Part shown: positions 15,670-52,371 of the stretch, piece by piece
Layout of the letters: each line of letters begins with the position of its first letter
Numbering within the stretch: the first letter of the stretch is position 1
The notes under the pieces: model-generated
What the model was told of the DNA's origin: nothing
What the model saw: the letters and a program-made list of their open reading frames with translations, nothing else
Databases searched by the model: none
From: Dysidea avara
Lineage: Eukaryota; Porifera; Demospongiae; Dictyoceratida; Dysideidae
Direction of reading: 5' to 3'
Assembly: GCF_963678975.1 (NCBI RefSeq)
Contig: NC_089284.1
Coordinates: 2,479,001 to 2,543,000 of the forward strand
Length of the DNA: 64,000 bases
Made by a program: the position numbers and the translations under genes

Positions 15670-28132
<12,463 letters not shown>

Positions 28133-42000: not shown

Positions 42001-44711
42001 CCAAGTAGACAGGTTCACCTGTGTATTTTACTTTTAAAACCAGTTGCTCAAATATGTATGTGCTAAAAAAGAAAAGAAAAAAAACAACAACAACAAGAAA
42101 GAAAGAAACAAACAAAAAACCTGAGTCCAGTAGTCCAGTCCACCAGTCCAGTACAACCACAGGGTATAACACATACCACAAGTGTAGGTTTGTTATCACT
42201 AAAACTCTGTATCACACCAGCAAGGCGATAGTTTAGGCTCATATCAAATTTGAAGCTGCTAGCAGATTCTGGATAACCCAGTACAACCTTGTGTAGCTTA
42301 ACAGGTCGATTGCTATCGTCTATGCTATGTAGTAATAAATACAGCAGCATCACCAAACGTACACACAATATATACCTGATAGAGACAGCAGGATCCTGTT
42401 CAGTACCCAACCAAGCAGCAATCTAATTGTCAGTAAATAAACAAGTACAATATAGTCACCATTGTATCTTACATCTTTGATATTTGGGATGGTAGCAGAC
42501 ACTGCTATAAAACGTAGAGGGATCGACGTGATTTGCTTCTGACCTGTAACTCCCTCTCTCTGTTGTAGTGATACCCGTACTGTCTTCATACGACTAACAA
42601 TAGCCTCCACTGTTGGGCCTCTACACTCATCATTCAACTGATGTACCTTTGATTATGTTGTAAAGGTAGTATATACATCATGTATGGCGCACCTCATCTA
42701 TGAAGAACAATCTGACTTGTTGTACCAGTGACTGATTATCTCTCCATCTTCTGGTCATACTGTCCCATTTCTCCTATACATATAGAGTTGACCTTTTGTG
42801 CATGTATGCACACACGCACACACACATATGTACACGCATACACACATACAAAGACAGACGCATGCACACAGACACATTCCCCCCATACTGGAGTTGTGGT
42901 GATAATATGGGCACGTTGTAATTCAAAGTAGTCATCCATTTCAGTGTCCCCTGTCAGTTCACAGCAGGTCAATCCTAATGGACCAAACTTGCCATTCCAA
43001 TCAGTGTATCGCTCAGTACACAATGCTTTGATAGGAGCAACTACAAATAAATACAAACGTCAACTAACACAACATAACAATATTCAATACCATATACGAT
43101 CTTGAAAGAACTCTTGGATTGTGTTAACAATCTTATTATAGCCATTTCAAAGATGGCAGTTTTTCCCGAACCAGTAGGTGCAGAAGTTACTATGTGTTTA
43201 TCACTGTGTAGTACCTAATGAGAAGTATACTTAAATGATATTTTAGAACAGTCTTCATACATGATCAAAGGCTTGTGACTGGACTACATTGAAACTAGAA
43301 TATCCACTAAACACTCTACGGTACTCTTCAGCTAAACACAATCAATTAAGTAATCAACATGTACTCTAATTAACTAAAGGATACGTATTTCTTTGACAGA
43401 CCTCAGTCGGCTTACACCATCACTGCTAAACTGATCATGGTCTATTATAAATCATATCACAAGTAGTAGTGATAGTTGCAGTGATGTACCTTGATGGTAA
43501 CCTTGTTGGTAGCTTTGTAATTTAGGTGAGTCAGCATAATAAGATTCATATTCAGCAGTATCATATTGACCTACCAATTAGATTATCTAACACCATCATA
43601 ACATACATTTTACATAATGCTCAAAACACTAGTGAAGCAGGTGGTGAGTCATCAGTACAATTATAGTAAATACTCTAATAGAGTATATGGTGACCTAGCA
43701 AAGTATGCAGCATCATTTGTTTGGCTGTTGCTTTGATGCAAACACGATATATCATACAACAATACTAGAATCTGCATAGCGAGTATATTCTGTGTCTTGG
43801 AAATCTACGAGCTACTACAAGTGTTTGTTCTAGTAATGTCACTGTTGGTTTCACGGTAGTAACATGCTTGAGCTTTGTTAGTGAGAAACACGATATATCA
43901 TACAACGATACTAGAATCTGCATAGCGAGTATATTCTGTGTCTTGGAAATCTACGAGCTACTACAAGTGTTTGTTCTAGTAATGTCACTGTTGGTTTCAC
44001 GGTAGTAACATGCTTGAGCTTTGTTAGTGAGATTCCTTCCTTTAGTGGCGATATCAAGAGTTCACTCTTGGTGATATTTATCTAGCTGTAGAAGTGGTTG
44101 AGTGGATAAACTTAGTACCAGGCAGATAAGCAAACAGAAAACAACAATGACAGGATTCCAAAACGTCTGATGTGCCCAATATGTAGTTTTGCAGGACCAG
44201 ATAACCTCCCAATGACAGGGAATAGCAGTAGTCTTGCCAGCTGGTCAGCCCGTACTTTTCTTTGTTATATGATTGGGGAGAAAGACAACCAAAAAGCTAG
44301 CTGGCCAGACTAGCTGCTAGTAAGAGAGTCCATTCTACAACCCCACAATACTAACTCAATTTATATCTCTGAATTTATTTTATACAATTACTAACAACAC
44401 CTACTATAATACTGTACCATCATGTGTGATGAAACTTGGTGACCTGACTGATTCTTCCAGAACATCGTCTTCTCCAGCACTCTCCGAGTTCACTAAACTT
44501 CCGTCAAAATAGTTTCCTACGACGTAGCTGTTTGCTTTTGTCTTCGTAGTATCAAATAACGGTCCCCTGGTACATGAAATAAAGGTCAACTAGAAGAGAA
44601 ACAAACTAACCTTGCAGAAAGATTACTGCTGACGGGAGAAAAGTTGTAAAAGATGTCGTCAAACAAATCATTTGGGTCTGGGGCTGGAGGAACAAGTGCA
44701 GACGTCTCCAT
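36073..44711 (-). CDS. HFM1: HFM1/MER3 meiotic ATP-dependent DNA helicase
   Basis: Ski2-like 3'-5' helicase acting on meiotic recombination intermediates for crossover formation. Exons: 44711-44611, 44566-44418, 43570-43490, 43441-43385, 43331-43261, 43214-43091, 43040-42889, 42773-42693, 42646-42473, 42422-42376, 42324-42177, 41547-41459, 41411-41368, 41322-41221, 41101-41076, 41025-40906, 40856-40809, 40755-40709, 40657-40470, 40428-40351, 40306-40215, 40171-40065, 40015-39968, 39919-39856, 39653-39620, 39571-39490, 39435-39389, 39333-39248, 39204-39172, 39125-39075, 39022-38871, 37630-37527, 37481-37420, 37026-36948, 36901-36864, 36813-36700, 36651-36073. All phases join: 1,232 residues (human 1,435). 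Motifs: Walker A APTGSGKT; TTP|EKWDSMTRRW; DEVH, split by an intron between E and V; SATIPN; FCSTRK; STLAMGVNFPAHL; QMIGRAGRPQFDTT; then winged-helix and Sec63 regions (LIEHLNAEIVLHTITSVP, VNEKKTLN). The C-terminus is a low-complexity Ser/Thr/Pro tail. The stop lies inside AAAGTGAGT, a perfect donor sequence, so a further 3' exon cannot be excluded. Confidence 0.95.
37058..37395. mobile_element. MITE with GCGGCGGAGGAAG termini
   Basis: CAGCGGCGGAGGAAG on the left faces CCTTTCCGCCACCT on the right. G-runs and C-runs lie just inside the ends, and an internal TGACTGCTCTATTAGAGTAT cassette is present. Located in HFM1 intron 33. The target duplication is uncertain. Confidence 0.55.
37736..38102. 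mobile_element. hAT-like MITE (TAGGGATGGGCGGT termini)
   Basis: Left TAGGGATGGGCGGTATTGG faces right CCAAGACACCGCCCAGCCCTA. The flanking octamers AGTAGGAC (37728-37735) and AGGAGGAC (38103-38110) match at 7 of 8 positions, consistent with the 8-bp duplication of hAT elements. It includes the ATTAGAGTGGTTGACTGTTC cassette. In HFM1 intron 31; a decayed relative is at 4832-5155. Confidence 0.7.
41602..42152. mobile_element. Foldback element with TGGACT-rich arms in HFM1 intron 11
   Basis: ACTGGACTGGACTAGTGGAC... on the left mirrors ...GTCCAGTCCACCAGTCCAGT on the right, with TTGGACTCAG facing CTGAGTCCAG. The same GGACTGGACT word occurs in the arms of the Mutator-like element at 17255-17952, suggesting a relationship. 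A/C-rich low-complexity sequence lies near the right arm. Confidence 0.55.
43741..44032. repeat. Two-copy tandem duplication, 146-bp unit
   Basis: 43741-43886 and 43887-44032 are direct head-to-tail copies differing at one position that I can see (CAACAATACT versus CAACGATACT). In HFM1 intron 2. Near-identity implies a recent event or an assembly artefact. Confidence 0.92.
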
Positions 44712-46450: not shown

Positions 46451-47122
46451 CACTGAACTGCTTTCAATTGCCATTGTGGTAAGTGTTATACATAATTTTG
46501 TTGAAAGTATAACTACATGATATATTAGGACTGTATAGCTATTATAGGGATCATGGAAGTTTGCACCTTTCACAAAAAATGTTGACCAGAAACCAGCTTT
46601 ATACAATCCCTTCATGGCACCTTGGCAGCATTGGTTATAGGTAGAATCAGTGGCGTAGCCAGGAAAATTTTTTTACCGAGGCAAAGTCTATTCATTGAAA
46701 TAATTGAGAGGGTCAGCTTCTGACTCAACTGATTCACACTCACTTTCAAGATTGGGTGGTACAGCATTTGCAGGTTGACTCTCTGTTTGGATGGAAGAAA
46801 TTGTTTCAGAAGACTCTGAGCATTTTCTACATGTCATAATTAATGTTCCAGCTTAGTTAATGCTACAGTATATGCATATCATGCATGCTTCAATTTTTAG
46901 ACTAGTGTAATTACACTCAACACAAAAACTGAATCAGACTACTCCAGAGATATTTATTTATTTATTAATGCTTTATAGTACACACATACAATCATAAGCT
47001 TAGGTACACACACAGATACAAGAATTGACAATACACATGGTGTACTAAAGGTCTGTAGGCTTGTTCCTACAGCCAAAAGTAGTAATTATAAAATAATAAT
47101 AAAAGAACACATGATAAATTGT

Positions 47123-49966
47123 CTAAGACAGTGTGTAGTTAATTGAGAAATGATCAGTAACACACCGACTACAGGGACAGTGGTAGTGCAGTGTATGAGG
47201 GTTGAGGGGGTCAAAGTTATGAATGAAATGATTCCAGAAGTGGGACTTGACTCTGTTCCTGATAGTATCAATAGACAGATTAACGTCAATTAATGGAAGC
47301 GCATTCCATAAGCGACAGATCCTTACAAAGTAAAAGTGTCGTTGCTTGTTAGTGGTGGAGGGATTGTGATGTAATTTGAAGCCTCCTGATCTGGCACTGG
47401 TAGAGAAGGAAATGAAATGGTGAATGTTGAAACTACTGGTTGGATTTTTGATAGATTTGATGAAAAACATGATGTCTGAAAGTTCAAAGGTGTACATTAA
47501 TGGGAGAAGCTCTAGTTTGAGAAGTCTAGTTTTATAGTCGGAAATGTAATCGTTCAAAATATACTTTGTGGCTCGTCTCTGAAGATGTTCTAGGTTACTG
47601 ATGTCTTTCACTAAATATGGACGCCAGATAGGGGAGCAGTACATGAGCTGAGACCTGATTAGAGATACGTATAGCTTAACTTTAGTCAGTGGTGGTATAG
47701 ATGAACTGAAGGTTCTTCGTACAAGACCCAATGTCTTATAAGCTTTACTTAAAATAATGTCATGATGAGTTTTCCATTCAAGATTATCACTTAATGTAAC
47801 TCCGAGATCTTTATGTGATTGTTTAGTAATGATTATGTTACCACTAATAGTATATGATGTAGGATACTTCCGGTTAAAAGATAAATGGCAGCTTTTAGAT
47901 GAGTTAAAATCTAAATTAGAGGATGTACTCCAGCTAAAGAGGTTGTCAATGTCACGTTGTAACAGTTGTTCGCCAGGAGGTGTCTTAATGTGCCTGAAAC
48001 ATTTGGTGTCATCTGCAAAGAGTAAAGCCTCACTGTCAGTAATAGAATTAGGTAGATCATTCATAAACATGATAAAGAGAAGTGGACCGAGAATACTGCC
48101 CTGGGGTACCCCAGATTCAACAGATAAAAGATCAGAGTAACAGTTATTAATAGAAACAAACTGGGATCTGGTGCTAAGGTAGGCTTGAAGCCAAAGCCAC
48201 AAGCTACCTGAAATGTTAAAGTTATGAAGTTTGGACAATAGATAAGAATGGGAAACCGAATCAAAAGCCTTACTGATATCTAAGTAGATGGCATCAAATT
48301 GGTCACGAGAAGAAAATGCATTGTGTAGAAATAGAAGTAGCTGTTGAGTAGTAGACCGATTGCGCATAAATCCAAACTGAGCAGGGTTGATGTAGGCCGA
48401 AATGTGATCAACCATTTTGTTGTAGATGATACGTTCTAGAACTTTAGATGTATTACTGAGTAGAGAAATTGGACGGTAATTTTTCACTGAGGTGGGATCA
48501 CCTGATTTAAAAATTGGAACAATCTTATGGACTTTCCAGTCTCTAGGCAAGTATGAAAACTGAAGCGTTAAATTAAATAAATAGCAGAGAGGTTGATGAA
48601 GGGCTGTGGCACACCTTTGTAAAACAATTGGTGGTATTCCATCAGGTCCCATGGCTTTGGTGGTATCTAAATTAAGAAGAACGTTAAGTACTTCACTATC
48701 AGATATATTGAGCTCAGATAACATAGTATGATGATCAATGTCATCAGGGGGTGCAGGATGGCTTGCTGCTTGGGTGAATACTGAATGAAAATATTTGTTG
48801 AAAAGGGAGGCTTTAGCTGAGTCAGAGTTGGCAGAGATGGAGTCATAATAAACAGAACATGGAATACAATTGGAATTTGTTAAACTTCGAATGTACTTAT
48901 AGATTTTAGAGTTGCTGTAGGAAAAGTTAGAGATCAAAGTAGATTCGTAGTCAGCCTTAGCATTACTTATTTCAGCTTGGAGTTGTGTTTCGTTATTTTC
49001 AAGTTTGATTTTATTCTGTTCAGAGGGATGCTTATTATATTTACGTCTAAGAGTTCGAACACGATTAATATTGTGTCTAATAGAAGAGTTGAACCATTTA
49101 GGCTGATTGTAGCGATTGACTCTAACAGTAGGTACAAACTGTTTTATCCCATCCTTGATAAGTTCACTAATGTAGCACCACACTTGTTCAATATTGTCAG
49201 ACTCAAGGCAAGGAGAGAAGTCCGAATTGCTTAAAAAGTAGCAGAGACCGTTGTAATCACCTTTAGTAAAGTCAAATGATGTTGTTGCTTGGTTATGTAC
49301 ATAATGATTGAGAGTTTGCACATCAAAAGTTACTATGTAATGATCTGAGGGAATAGACAGAGGTGGTACAGAATGAATATTTACATTGAATATGTGATCG
49401 GGAATGTTTGTTAAAATAAGATCAAGCATGTTTCCAGCAATATGAGTTGGTTCACAGATTAGCTGAGAAAGATTCAAATTAAAAATAATATCACAGAACT
49501 TGGCTGAGGCAGGAGAAAGGCCACACAAGGAGTCCCAATTAACATCGCCAAAATTGAAATCACCAAGAAGTAGTAAGTTATCAGTAGCACTGTTGAGTGA
49601 CTGTAGATAATTAAAAAATTCTATTAAGTACTCTTCAGAGGAGTTTGGGGGAATATATACTAAGCAGTAGATAATTGAAGAGCTTGATCCAATACTAACT
49701 GAAAGCACTTCTAAACAAGGAGGAGAAGGTAAAACTTTGTATGATTTGGAATTATGGACAGCTAGCATGACTCCACCACCACGAGAGCCACGATCTTTGC
49801 GAATCAGTGAATAGTTTGAGGGTAGAATTTCATTATCATAAATTTTGCTAGACAGCCAGGTCTCAGTTATTCCTATAACATCAGGGGATCTTGAATAAAC
49901 ATAGTCCTGGAAAATTTTTAACTTATTTACTATACTACGTATGTTGATTAGACAGACATGATCTAG
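47123..49966 (-). CDS. LINE ORF2: AP endonuclease plus reverse transcriptase
   Basis: 947 codons open from the TGA that ends ORF1 to the stop at 47123. Domains in order: endonuclease (INIRSIVNKL, ITETWLSS, RGGGVMLAV, LLGDFNFGDVNW, SDHYIVTF), linker, then reverse transcriptase (FKSGDPTSVKNYRPISLL, YLDISKAFDSVSH, GVPQGSILGPLLFIMFMNDL, LLFADDTK with the FADD active site), and a C-terminal region ending RLWNALP. The first Met (49768) lies inside the endonuclease domain, after its conserved N-terminal motif. Translation must therefore start earlier, by reading through or reinitiating near the ORF1 stop, or by a non-ATG start. Family placement near CR1/jockey is by motif style only. Confidence 0.88.
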   Translation of the reverse strand, partial: LDHVCLINIRSIVNKLKIFQDYVYSRSPDVIGITETWLSSKIYDNEILPSNYSLIRKDRGSRGGGVMLAVHNSKSYKVLPSPPCLEVLSVSIGSSSSIIYCLVYIPPNSSEEYLIEFFNYLQSLNSATDNLLLLGDFNFGDVNWDSLCGLSPASAKFCDIIFNLNLSQLICEPTHIAGNMLDLILTNIPDHIFNVNIHSVPPLSIPSDHYIVTFDVQTLNHYVHNQATTSFDFTKGDYNGLCYFLSNSDFSPCLESDNIEQVWCYISELIKDGIKQFVPTVRVNRYNQPKWFNSSIRHNINRVRTLRRKYNKHPSEQNKIKLENNETQLQAEISNAKADYESTLISNFSYSNSKIYKYIRSLTNSNCIPCSVYYDSISANSDSAKASLFNKYFHSVFTQAASHPAPPDDIDHHTMLSELNISDSEVLNVLLNLDTTKAMGPDGIPPIVLQRCATALHQPLCYLFNLTLQFSYLPRDWKVHKIVPIFKSGDPTSVKNYRPISLLSNTSKVLERIIYNKMVDHISAYINPAQFGFMRNRSTTQQLLLFLHNAFSSRDQFDAIYLDISKAFDSVSHSYLLSKLHNFNISGSLWLWLQAYLSTRSQFVSINNCYSDLLSVESGVPQGSILGPLLFIMFMNDLPNSITDSEALLFADDTKCFRHIKTPPGEQLLQRDIDNLFSWSTSSNLDFNSSKSCHLSFNRKYPTSYTISGNIIITKQSHKDLGVTLSDNLEWKTHHDIILSKAYKTLGLVRRTFSSSIPPLTKVKLYVSLIRSQLMYCSPIWRPYLVKDISNLEHLQRRATKYILNDYISDYKTRLLKLELLPLMYTFELSDIMFFIKSIKNPTSSFNIHHFISFSTSARSGGFKLHHNPSTTNKQRHFYFVRICRLWNALPLIDVNLSIDTIRNRVKSHFWNHFIHNFDPLNPHTLHYHCPCSRCVTDHFSINYTLS

Positions 49967-50635
49967 TCACTTGTCACTACTGACCTGGGTGGTGGTGGTT
50001 GACTGGGAGGGATCAGAGGTAACTAGATTTGGTGAACTAAGATTGATTAGTGGAGACTGGTCCATCTGTTGAGGATGGGAAGTTGTGTTTTGTGGAGTTG
50101 GAATTGTCTGTGTAGAACGTTGGAATTGGGAGTTGATAACTTTCCCATACAGTTGGTTGTTGAGATAAATGCAGCTGCGTTGACTGTTAAGCTTGATTGA
50201 TTTTCTAGAGTGACCATTCTGGATTAGAGACCACCTTTCTTTTAGTAAGATGGACTCGATAGCTCGCTCAGTAGGTGACAAGTCAGGCTTGATAAATATT
50301 GGAGATGCCAGTGAGCTTCGGTTGGCAAGAATGGTAGCTGCATCGATTGCACGGTGTAACTTCACAAGGATCGGTCTGGGCCTGGTTTGTTGGGACTTAA
50401 ATTTTCCCAGTCTAAAGCAGTCCAGGATTTGGTTTGGTTCGACGTGAACATCAATGCTACCAAATATCTTTGATACTTCTTTAGTATCTCTAACTATACG
50501 AGCACTCCTTAGAGTATTCTGAGGACATTCTTCAATACCAAACACTACAATATTAGACTTGCGATCATTGGATGTCACAGCAGATTTTGAGTGAACAGGC
50601 CATCGTGGACTGCATTGGTAGTCATAGTCATGCAC
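49967..50635 (-). CDS. LINE ORF1 (nucleic-acid-binding protein, probably 5'-truncated)
   Basis: 222 codons from the ATG at 50635; the frame is open 14 codons further upstream before a TGA. SNIVVFGIEE, DCFRLGK and RPRPILVKL are typical of the RRM-like fold of LINE ORF1 proteins. The C-terminus is Pro/Gln/Ser/Thr-rich. It ends AAG TGA CTA GAT in the same frame as ORF2. Just upstream, another frame reads EHHIKEIISDLK, a coiled-coil-like piece, hinting at either truncation or a frameshift there. Confidence 0.6.
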   Translation of the reverse strand: MHDYDYQCSPRWPVHSKSAVTSNDRKSNIVVFGIEECPQNTLRSARIVRDTKEVSKIFGSIDVHVEPNQILDCFRLGKFKSQQTRPRPILVKLHRAIDAATILANRSSLASPIFIKPDLSPTERAIESILLKERWSLIQNGHSRKSIKLNSQRSCIYLNNQLYGKVINSQFQRSTQTIPTPQNTTSHPQQMDQSPLINLSSPNLVTSDPSQSTTTTQVSSDK

Positions 50636-50734
50636 ACTACTTTTTCAGTATTGATCTGCTGTGATGTTTTAAGTCAGAGATTATCTCTTTGATGTGATGT
50701 TCAACTGCATGTGCTAATGATGTCAAGCTAGTGA

Positions 50735-51045
50735 GTCTAGGGGCATGCTCCCTTAAGGAAATTTTTGAAAATAAGTTATATGCTTTGAAATGGTATGAGG
50801 AGGTTATTTTTTATTGTAACTGCTAATACACGATATGCATGATCAATTGATTAACATAAATGTAAATGATTTAGACCAAGCAGTGCAATGAGAACAGTGG
50901 CTATAATCTGTACTGAATGTTCTATTAGAGTGTATTACGCTGACTGCTCTATTAGAGTATCTCGATCTTTTTTACAAACTCAAGTAGCTGAAAAGTGATC
51001 CATCCAATGCCGGATGTGTTACCAAGGGTCTGGCCCTGCTTAGTA
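50735..51045. mobile_element. Truncated relative of the CAGGGGCGGATC element
   Basis: Colinear with parts of 45170-45720: CTAGGGGCATGCTCCCTTA, GAATGTTCTATTAGAGT, CTGCTCTATTAGAGTATCTC and a CCAATGC...GGTC end. Both termini are missing. Confidence 0.55.
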
Positions 51046-52007: not shown

Positions 52008-52371
52008 CAGGGCCGCCCACAGGGGGGGGGGGGGGGGCAACTGGGGCATTTTGCCCCGGGCCCCAGCCTGAAAGGGGCCCCAGGAGGCCCCATGAAGGGC
52101 CCCCTGAATACCTGTTTAAAAGATCGATATACTCTAATAGAGCAGTCAGATCTAAATACTCTAATAGAGCAGTCACAGTATTCTTCAGAGGAGCAGTGTA
52201 GCAAGCTTATAGATAAGGAGATATGGTTGGTGATGGGTAGTTATTGTCATTGCCAGCAGGTTGTGACCTTTTTTTTTTTTTTTTTTTTTTTGGTCTTCAC
52301 CTTACAACTTGGGTCAAGGGCCCCACTTTAACTCTTTGCCCTGGGCCCCTTAATTTCTCTGGGCGGCCCTG
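52008..52371. mobile_element. hAT-type MITE with perfect 8-bp target duplication
   Basis: Starts CAGGGCCGCCCAC and ends GTGG-like GGGCGGCCCTG. It is flanked by the identical octamer CTGTTAGC at 52000-52007 and 52372-52379. It contains a G17-class run, a poly-T tract of about 22 and two ACTCTAATAGAGCAGTCA words. 364 bp, non-coding. Confidence 0.88.

Follow-up and report, generated by a model that had tools for sequence, protein, structure and literature searches.

A long interspersed nuclear element (LINE) of the sponge Dysidea avara carries its two open reading frames (ORFs), ORF1 and ORF2, in one and the same frame, divided by a single UGA that is directly followed by CUAG. The element lies on the minus strand of a 64,000-nucleotide (nt) stretch of contig NC_089284.1 (positions 2,479,001 to 2,543,000), referred to here as the window. 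Comparison with other copies in the genome suggests that programmed readthrough at UGA-CUA, giving an ORF1-ORF2 fusion protein, is very probably the best explanation both for the window element and for the lineage to which it belongs. The window copy represents one family within a deep lineage of LINEs with an APE-type endonuclease, in which ORF1 and ORF2 form one frame with a single UGA and then, in nearly all families, CUA at the boundary. The majority of ribosomes would terminate at the UGA and yield the ORF1 protein, with its putative PHD finger and a conserved C-terminal domain, and a minority would insert an amino acid there and produce the fusion with the endonuclease and the reverse transcriptase. 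The short UGA-CUA(G) context, rather than any RNA fold beyond it, would make the stop leaky, and the strategy would resemble the Gag-Pol readthrough of retroviruses.

At the junction of the window copy (49961-49969) the minus strand reads AAG TGA CTA GAT, within the wider string GAC AAG TGA CTA GAT CAT G. A preliminary description of the window, made from its letters alone, had reported that ORF1 and ORF2 are one frame split by this UGA with CUAG after it, and that the frame stays open for 947 codons beyond the stop; both statements were borne out, the frame being closed by a TAG (coordinates in Table 1). It had also placed the start of the endonuclease before the first ATG, and this order was found: an Asn stands at codon 8 and a Glu at codon 35, both of which we take to be catalytic residues of the endonuclease, and the first in-frame ATG follows at codon 67. 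Initiation at that ATG would lose both residues in the window copy, as had been argued. The heptamer TGACTAG was considered as a rarity by itself and rejected, since it occurs 9 times in the window against 10.6 expected; what lifts the junction heptamer above chance is its retention from family to family, not its rarity.

Readthrough at UGA-CUAG is itself already known, as is that of retroviral Gag-Pol. Passages of PMC4132726 describe UGA-CUAG as an efficient readthrough context, in agreement with what had been claimed for the window copy, and give a readthrough of 1.5% for UGA-CUA alone and of ~31% for OPRL1, and show that in four human genes readthrough was already maximal with 12 nt on the 3' side.

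Junctions across copies and families

The genome that contains the window (550.8 Mb, 108 contigs) was searched for further copies. The best 48 of 15968 candidates were scored in the copy search, and junctions were read from this and three further searches. From the resulting 70 loci (L002-L071), six in which the match begins past the junction (L011, L013, L015, L016, L018 and L019), L064, which is the same place as L053, and the frame-shifted L061 were left out, giving 62 readable junctions with the window's own included. These fall into 12 families, which we delimited by similarity: A (12 junctions), B (11), B' (2), C1 (4), C2 (3), C3 (5), C4 (1), C5 (12), D (6), E1 (1), E2 (1) and E3 (4). 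Two copies in which the upstream part is out of frame (L010 of family A and L045 of family B) were counted, as TGA CTAG is present by letters. Families E1-E3, with 46-47% identity to D, are known from 501-nt junction windows and search rows.

The stop at the junction is TGA in 60 of the 62 readable junctions and is present in all 12 families, and ORF2 is in frame with the end of ORF1 in every family (12/12). The codon after the TGA is CTA in 50 of these 60 junctions, that is, in 11 of the 12 families, and CTC in ten C5 copies. With the next letter included, the CTA families divide into six with CTAG (A, B, B', C2, D and E2) and five with CTAC (C1, C3, C4, E1 and E3); the E2 junction reads CTAGGC, the published OPRL1 context. 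The check that the preliminary description had proposed, a comparison with other copies, thus gave an in-frame TGA + CTN with an open downstream frame in the window family and in 11 further families. The two outcomes that it had named as refuting its reading are absent as a rule: a sense codon was found at two junctions, both in C5 (CGA in L042 and TGG in L062), and ORF1 runs into the start of ORF2 without a change of frame in each of the 12 families. Its proposal of programmed readthrough is supported, with the qualification that the full CUAG is found in only 6 of 12 families.

The two C5 copies with a sense codon are natural ORF1-ORF2 fusions. ORF1 has decayed in some copies: the single C4 copy that was read contains an extra in-frame TGA within ORF1, and in the E1 copy stops occur upstream.

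For a genome-wide count, a 121-residue query over the junction was used and the best 150 of 1017 candidate places were scored. Places with a query start at or before residue 59 and an end at or after residue 70 were taken as spanning the junction (133 places, the rows not all being separate copies). Among the matches listed, 119 of these 133 contain at least one TGA, which in unread places may not sit exactly at the junction. The 14 spanning places without TGA comprise six C3 rows, the two C5 sense copies, two rows of garbled copies and four unread places. In the C3 rows the alignment follows the long spacer and does not take in the TGA, and five of the six were read, all with TGA; the garbled copies also appear in other rows with TGA. 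Where the joint frame, with TGA taken as a residue, reaches at least 1280 amino acids (aa), TGA is present in 21 of 21 places, one of them with two TGAs.

Codon conservation at the junction

Between the nine families chosen as representatives, the ORF2 proteins share 46-75% identity, and their tree, which takes in only nine families of this genome, contains well supported deep groups. Agreement between families at 4-fold degenerate sites is 24-48% (eight families), and synonymous sites look near saturation. The same is visible in individual codons. In the 35 columns where all nine families have Leu, the commonest codon is found in 3 or 4 families and CTA in at most 4, and CTA makes up 185 of 984 Leu codons. 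Amino acids with 4- or 6-fold degeneracy occupy 109 invariant columns; one of these reaches a codon sharing of 8/9, and none reaches 9/9. When all 223 invariant columns with residues encoded by several codons are taken together, a sharing of 8/9 or 9/9 is seen in 21, so that high sharing does occur at less degenerate residues.

The CTA of the junction is common to 8 of the 9 representative families. Set against the synonymous positions elsewhere, this indicates that the identity of the stop and of the next codon is held at this one place. The terminal stop of ORF2 is TAG or TAA in all nine representatives, never TGA. A binomial figure of 1e-05 for the junction CTA takes the families as independent and is a guide only. 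The comparison supports the view that UGA-CUA readthrough would be under selection across a deep LINE lineage.

Start codons and alternative explanations

To our knowledge, the translation of ORF2 in two-ORF LINEs is known for few elements only, by reinitiation or by stop-start coupling. The spacer between the TGA and the Asn of the endonuclease is 6 to 63 codons long and is in frame and stop-free in 9/9 families, the other frames being often closed. The first in-frame ATG stands at codon 67 in family A, 241 in C1, 179 in C4, 67 in D and 29 in C5; in these five of the nine families it lies past the Asn, and in all of them but C5 past the Glu as well. Five of nine families have no usable ATG for an intact endonuclease. 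Another C5 copy has no in-frame ATG within 80 codons, and in family A an out-of-frame ATG 7 nt past the stop opens an ORF of 3 codons.

These positions bear on termination-reinitiation, in which ribosomes would halt at the UGA and then begin again at a start codon shortly after it. Coupling or reinitiation is described for ORF2 of SART1 and LINE-1 in the relevant part of PMC5972666, as the published route of the former and a proposed one for the latter, and four families offer a place for it: an in-frame ATG precedes the Asn in B and B' (codon 7), C2 (codon 63) and C3 (codon 19), and in family B a TAATG overlaps the codon-7 ATG. We consider this explanation unlikely, since the first ATG comes too late in the five families named above, the C5 copy and the short ORF of family A offer no restart either, and the shared frame and CUA have both been retained although reinitiation has no need of them. 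A SART1-type overlap of stop and start (UAAUG) does not occur, the ORF1 stop being UGA + CUN in 12/12 families, and in eight representatives no overlap of the ORF1 stop with an ATG in the ORF2 frame was found. Inspection of the junction translations by eye showed no NPGP (2A) motif. That TGA-CTA is kept for some other reason, such as an RNA signal, a promoter of ORF2 or a splice signal, and that ORF2 comes from a separate transcript, is very unlikely. Its precedent is Tca2, a long terminal repeat (LTR) element of Candida, whose in-frame UGA junction showed no readthrough in yeast reporters and turned out to contain a promoter instead, according to PMC2194720; Tca2 is also a caution that an in-frame UGA can fail to give readthrough when such a junction is placed in a reporter. 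Here the nucleotides flanking the stop and its following codon vary from family to family for the most part, A and B being more alike, and a spacer that changes in length and yet stays in frame and free of stops would be difficult to account for unless it is translated. An intron of 24 nt was also considered in family A, whose stop lies within a GT..AG-like stretch; it was rejected by eye, being too short and absent from the junctions of other families.

An even smaller probability attaches to a change in the meaning of the UGA itself, by decoding as selenocysteine, by reassignment in the organism or by editing to UGG in the RNA, although one C5 copy does have TGG. Six elements scanned against Rfam with E up to 5 gave 13 matches, none of them a selenocysteine insertion sequence (SECIS), and selenocysteine was rejected; reassignment was rejected because Trp coding is standard, TGG being the only Trp codon in eight ORF2s, which contain no in-frame TGA. 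Such recoding or editing would also leave the conserved CUA unexplained, and no fold hints at editing. Least probable of all is that a nonsense mutation, private or fossil, gave rise to the TGA, and that in working elements a sense codon joins the two parts into a single fused ORF. A sense codon is indeed present in two C5 copies, and PMC4120745 reports subgroups of L2 and CR1 with single-ORF elements, but a private mutation was rejected because the TGA is common to other copies and families, at nearly all readable junctions and in every one of the longest joint frames.

Programmed readthrough of the UGA has to be weighed against several points of its own. A stable downstream RNA fold was not found in the 12 families (z from -1.8 to +2.5), and a stimulatory fold was rejected as a candidate; the absence of a strong fold fits the short UGA-CUAG type of readthrough. 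Five of the nine spacers are only 6-7 codons long, so that their openness carries little evidence value, and in B, B', C2 and C3 reinitiation could work. Lower readthrough would be expected with the CUAC of five families and the CUC of one. A sense codon at the junction occurs at least in single copies, as the two of C5 show, and 4 of the 133 spanning places are without TGA, their junction letters being unread. The terminal TAG of ORF2 in family D also has CTA after it. The data cover one genome and, within it, the 12 families compared here; the occurrence of readthrough, its frequency and the working of the fusion in retrotransposition are what we infer.

The element, related systems and implications

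From its predicted domains, whose Pfam matches exceed the cut-off, the element is assigned to the APE-type non-LTR retrotransposons (LINEs), with an exo_endo_phos-type endonuclease followed by a reverse transcriptase in one ORF. ORF2 also matches Exo_endo_phos_2 (Pfam, E=1.6e-08), and its profile aligns with LINE-1 ORF2p across positions 15-733 (E=2.3e-32). ORF1 is predicted to carry a PHD finger at its N-terminus: the ORF1 profile (7 families) matches MLL PHD3 (E=4.2e-07) and Pygopus PHD, and the Pfam PHD was detected, under the cut-off, in 6/6 proteins scanned. ORF1 also holds a conserved domain of 150 aa, for which no RRM or transposase_22 match was found in PDB or Pfam. In the blastn comparison with nine other loci, homology begins at 46950-46951 in 9/9 and extends to 50587 in 4/9. 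This limit implies that ORF1 is truncated in the window copy and that what looks like its opening stretch of ~19 codons (50588-50644) is flank, open by chance. No target-site duplication of at least 5 nt was found at the window copy. Copies of the element are dispersed, and some begin inside it.

Table 1. Coordinates of the LINE copy in the window and of its features.
Feature	Position	Strand	Basis
LINE copy, family A, 5'-truncated inside ORF1; 3' end an (AATA)n-like tail	46951..50587	-	blastn vs nine other loci
ORF1 3' part, ~206 codons of ~370, in frame with ORF2	49970..50587	-	ORF 49967-50644; homology limit; 370-aa ORF1 of L005
TGA between ORF1 and ORF2, proposed readthrough codon	49967..49969	-	sequence; TGA in 60/62 readable junctions, window copy included
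CTAG immediately 3' of TGA (readthrough context)	49963..49966	-	CTA in 11/12 families, CTAG in 6/12
ORF2, 947 codons, predicted endonuclease and reverse transcriptase; stop TAG at 47123-47125	47126..49966	-	ORF list, Pfam
Asn, codon 8, start of endonuclease	49943..49945	-	invariant in eight-family alignment
Endonuclease domain, Exo_endo_phos, residues 9-209	49340..49942	-	Pfam E=2.6e-08
Catalytic-like Glu, codon 35, aligned to Glu of LINE-1 ORF2p 'QETH'	49862..49864	-	profile alignment to 8uw3
First in-frame ATG past TGA, codon 67, downstream of Asn and Glu	49766..49768	-	sequence
Reverse transcriptase domain, RVT_1, residues 494-722	47801..48487	-	Pfam E=2.7e-33

Three further features were observed in the window. 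A long imperfect palindrome at 17268-17926, ~85% self-complementary over ~660 nt, is like a fold-back element. A 146-nt unit at 43740-44032 is tandemly duplicated, and its 99% identity makes the duplication probably recent. Just upstream of the LINE copy, an inverted 63-nt pair (50913-50976 and 52113-52175, 83%) with the repeated motif CTCTAATAGAG has its arms ~1.1 kb apart, and perhaps represents the ends of a short DNA transposon.

No relatives of the element were found in viral contigs, in phages or in one further genome-contig scan. The plasmid scan gave seven records at 23-29% identity, three of them annotated as ltrA and one resembling clone contamination. The last (L001; NZ_CP104070.1, 'plasmid unnamed3' of Alicyclobacillus fastidiosus) has an IncFIA replicon and catA1, as in a cloning vector, and its insert encodes a LINE-like reverse transcriptase at 28% identity; our guess is that it is clone contamination filed as a plasmid.

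Among described LINEs, an N-terminal PHD and transposase_22 in ORF1 are given for L2 subgroup 6 and CR1 subgroup 5 (type IIC, Jockey superfamily) in sections of PMC4120745. The ORF1 with its putative N-terminal PHD finger and the ORF2 with APE endonuclease and reverse transcriptase are shared with these elements, a likeness of domain content. The text of PMC4120745 contains neither 'stop codon' nor 'readthrough', and among the listed titles, abstract openings and passages of the open literature none reported a LINE whose ORF1 is read through into ORF2, a scope that takes in neither subscription papers nor Repbase notes. The closest likeness in signal is to the UGA-CUA(G) readthrough of alphaviruses and of OPRL1, OPRK1, AQP4 and MAPK10, in which, by the account in parts of PMC4132726, UGA and CUA, often CUAG, are conserved and no fold is evident; family E2 even has the CUAGGC of OPRL1. 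The LINE junction differs in joining ORF1 and ORF2 of a non-LTR retrotransposon, in having CUAC or CUC in half of the families and in being known here from sequence alone. Gag-Pol of the gammaretrovirus Moloney murine leukaemia virus likewise places an upstream protein and a polymerase in the same frame on either side of one stop (PMC5009743), although there the stop is UAG with a 3' pseudoknot, in contrast to UGA-CUA without an evident fold, and the element types are unrelated. SART1 and LINE-1 face the same problem of expressing ORF2 from the RNA of a two-ORF LINE (PMC5972666, same part); their termination-reinitiation needs a start codon for ORF2 and no shared frame, whereas over half of the families compared here have no usable ATG.

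We lean towards the broader view that a whole anciently diverged LINE lineage would make its endonuclease and reverse transcriptase only as a UGA-CUA fusion, the Gag-Pol strategy having then evolved independently in non-LTR elements. A lineage in which a short readthrough signal has persisted through near-saturated divergence provides a test of selection for readthrough, with CUAG, CUAC, CUC and sense codons as its natural variants. Elements of this kind can pass for decayed or two-gene LINEs in annotation. The arrangement implies that the endonuclease and reverse transcriptase of a LINE may be delivered fused to ORF1, which would change the ORF1:ORF2 stoichiometry and cis-preference. If the lineage does depend on the fusion, its mobility would depend on the host's control of termination, and the C5 copies with a sense codon would be natural over-producers of the fusion.

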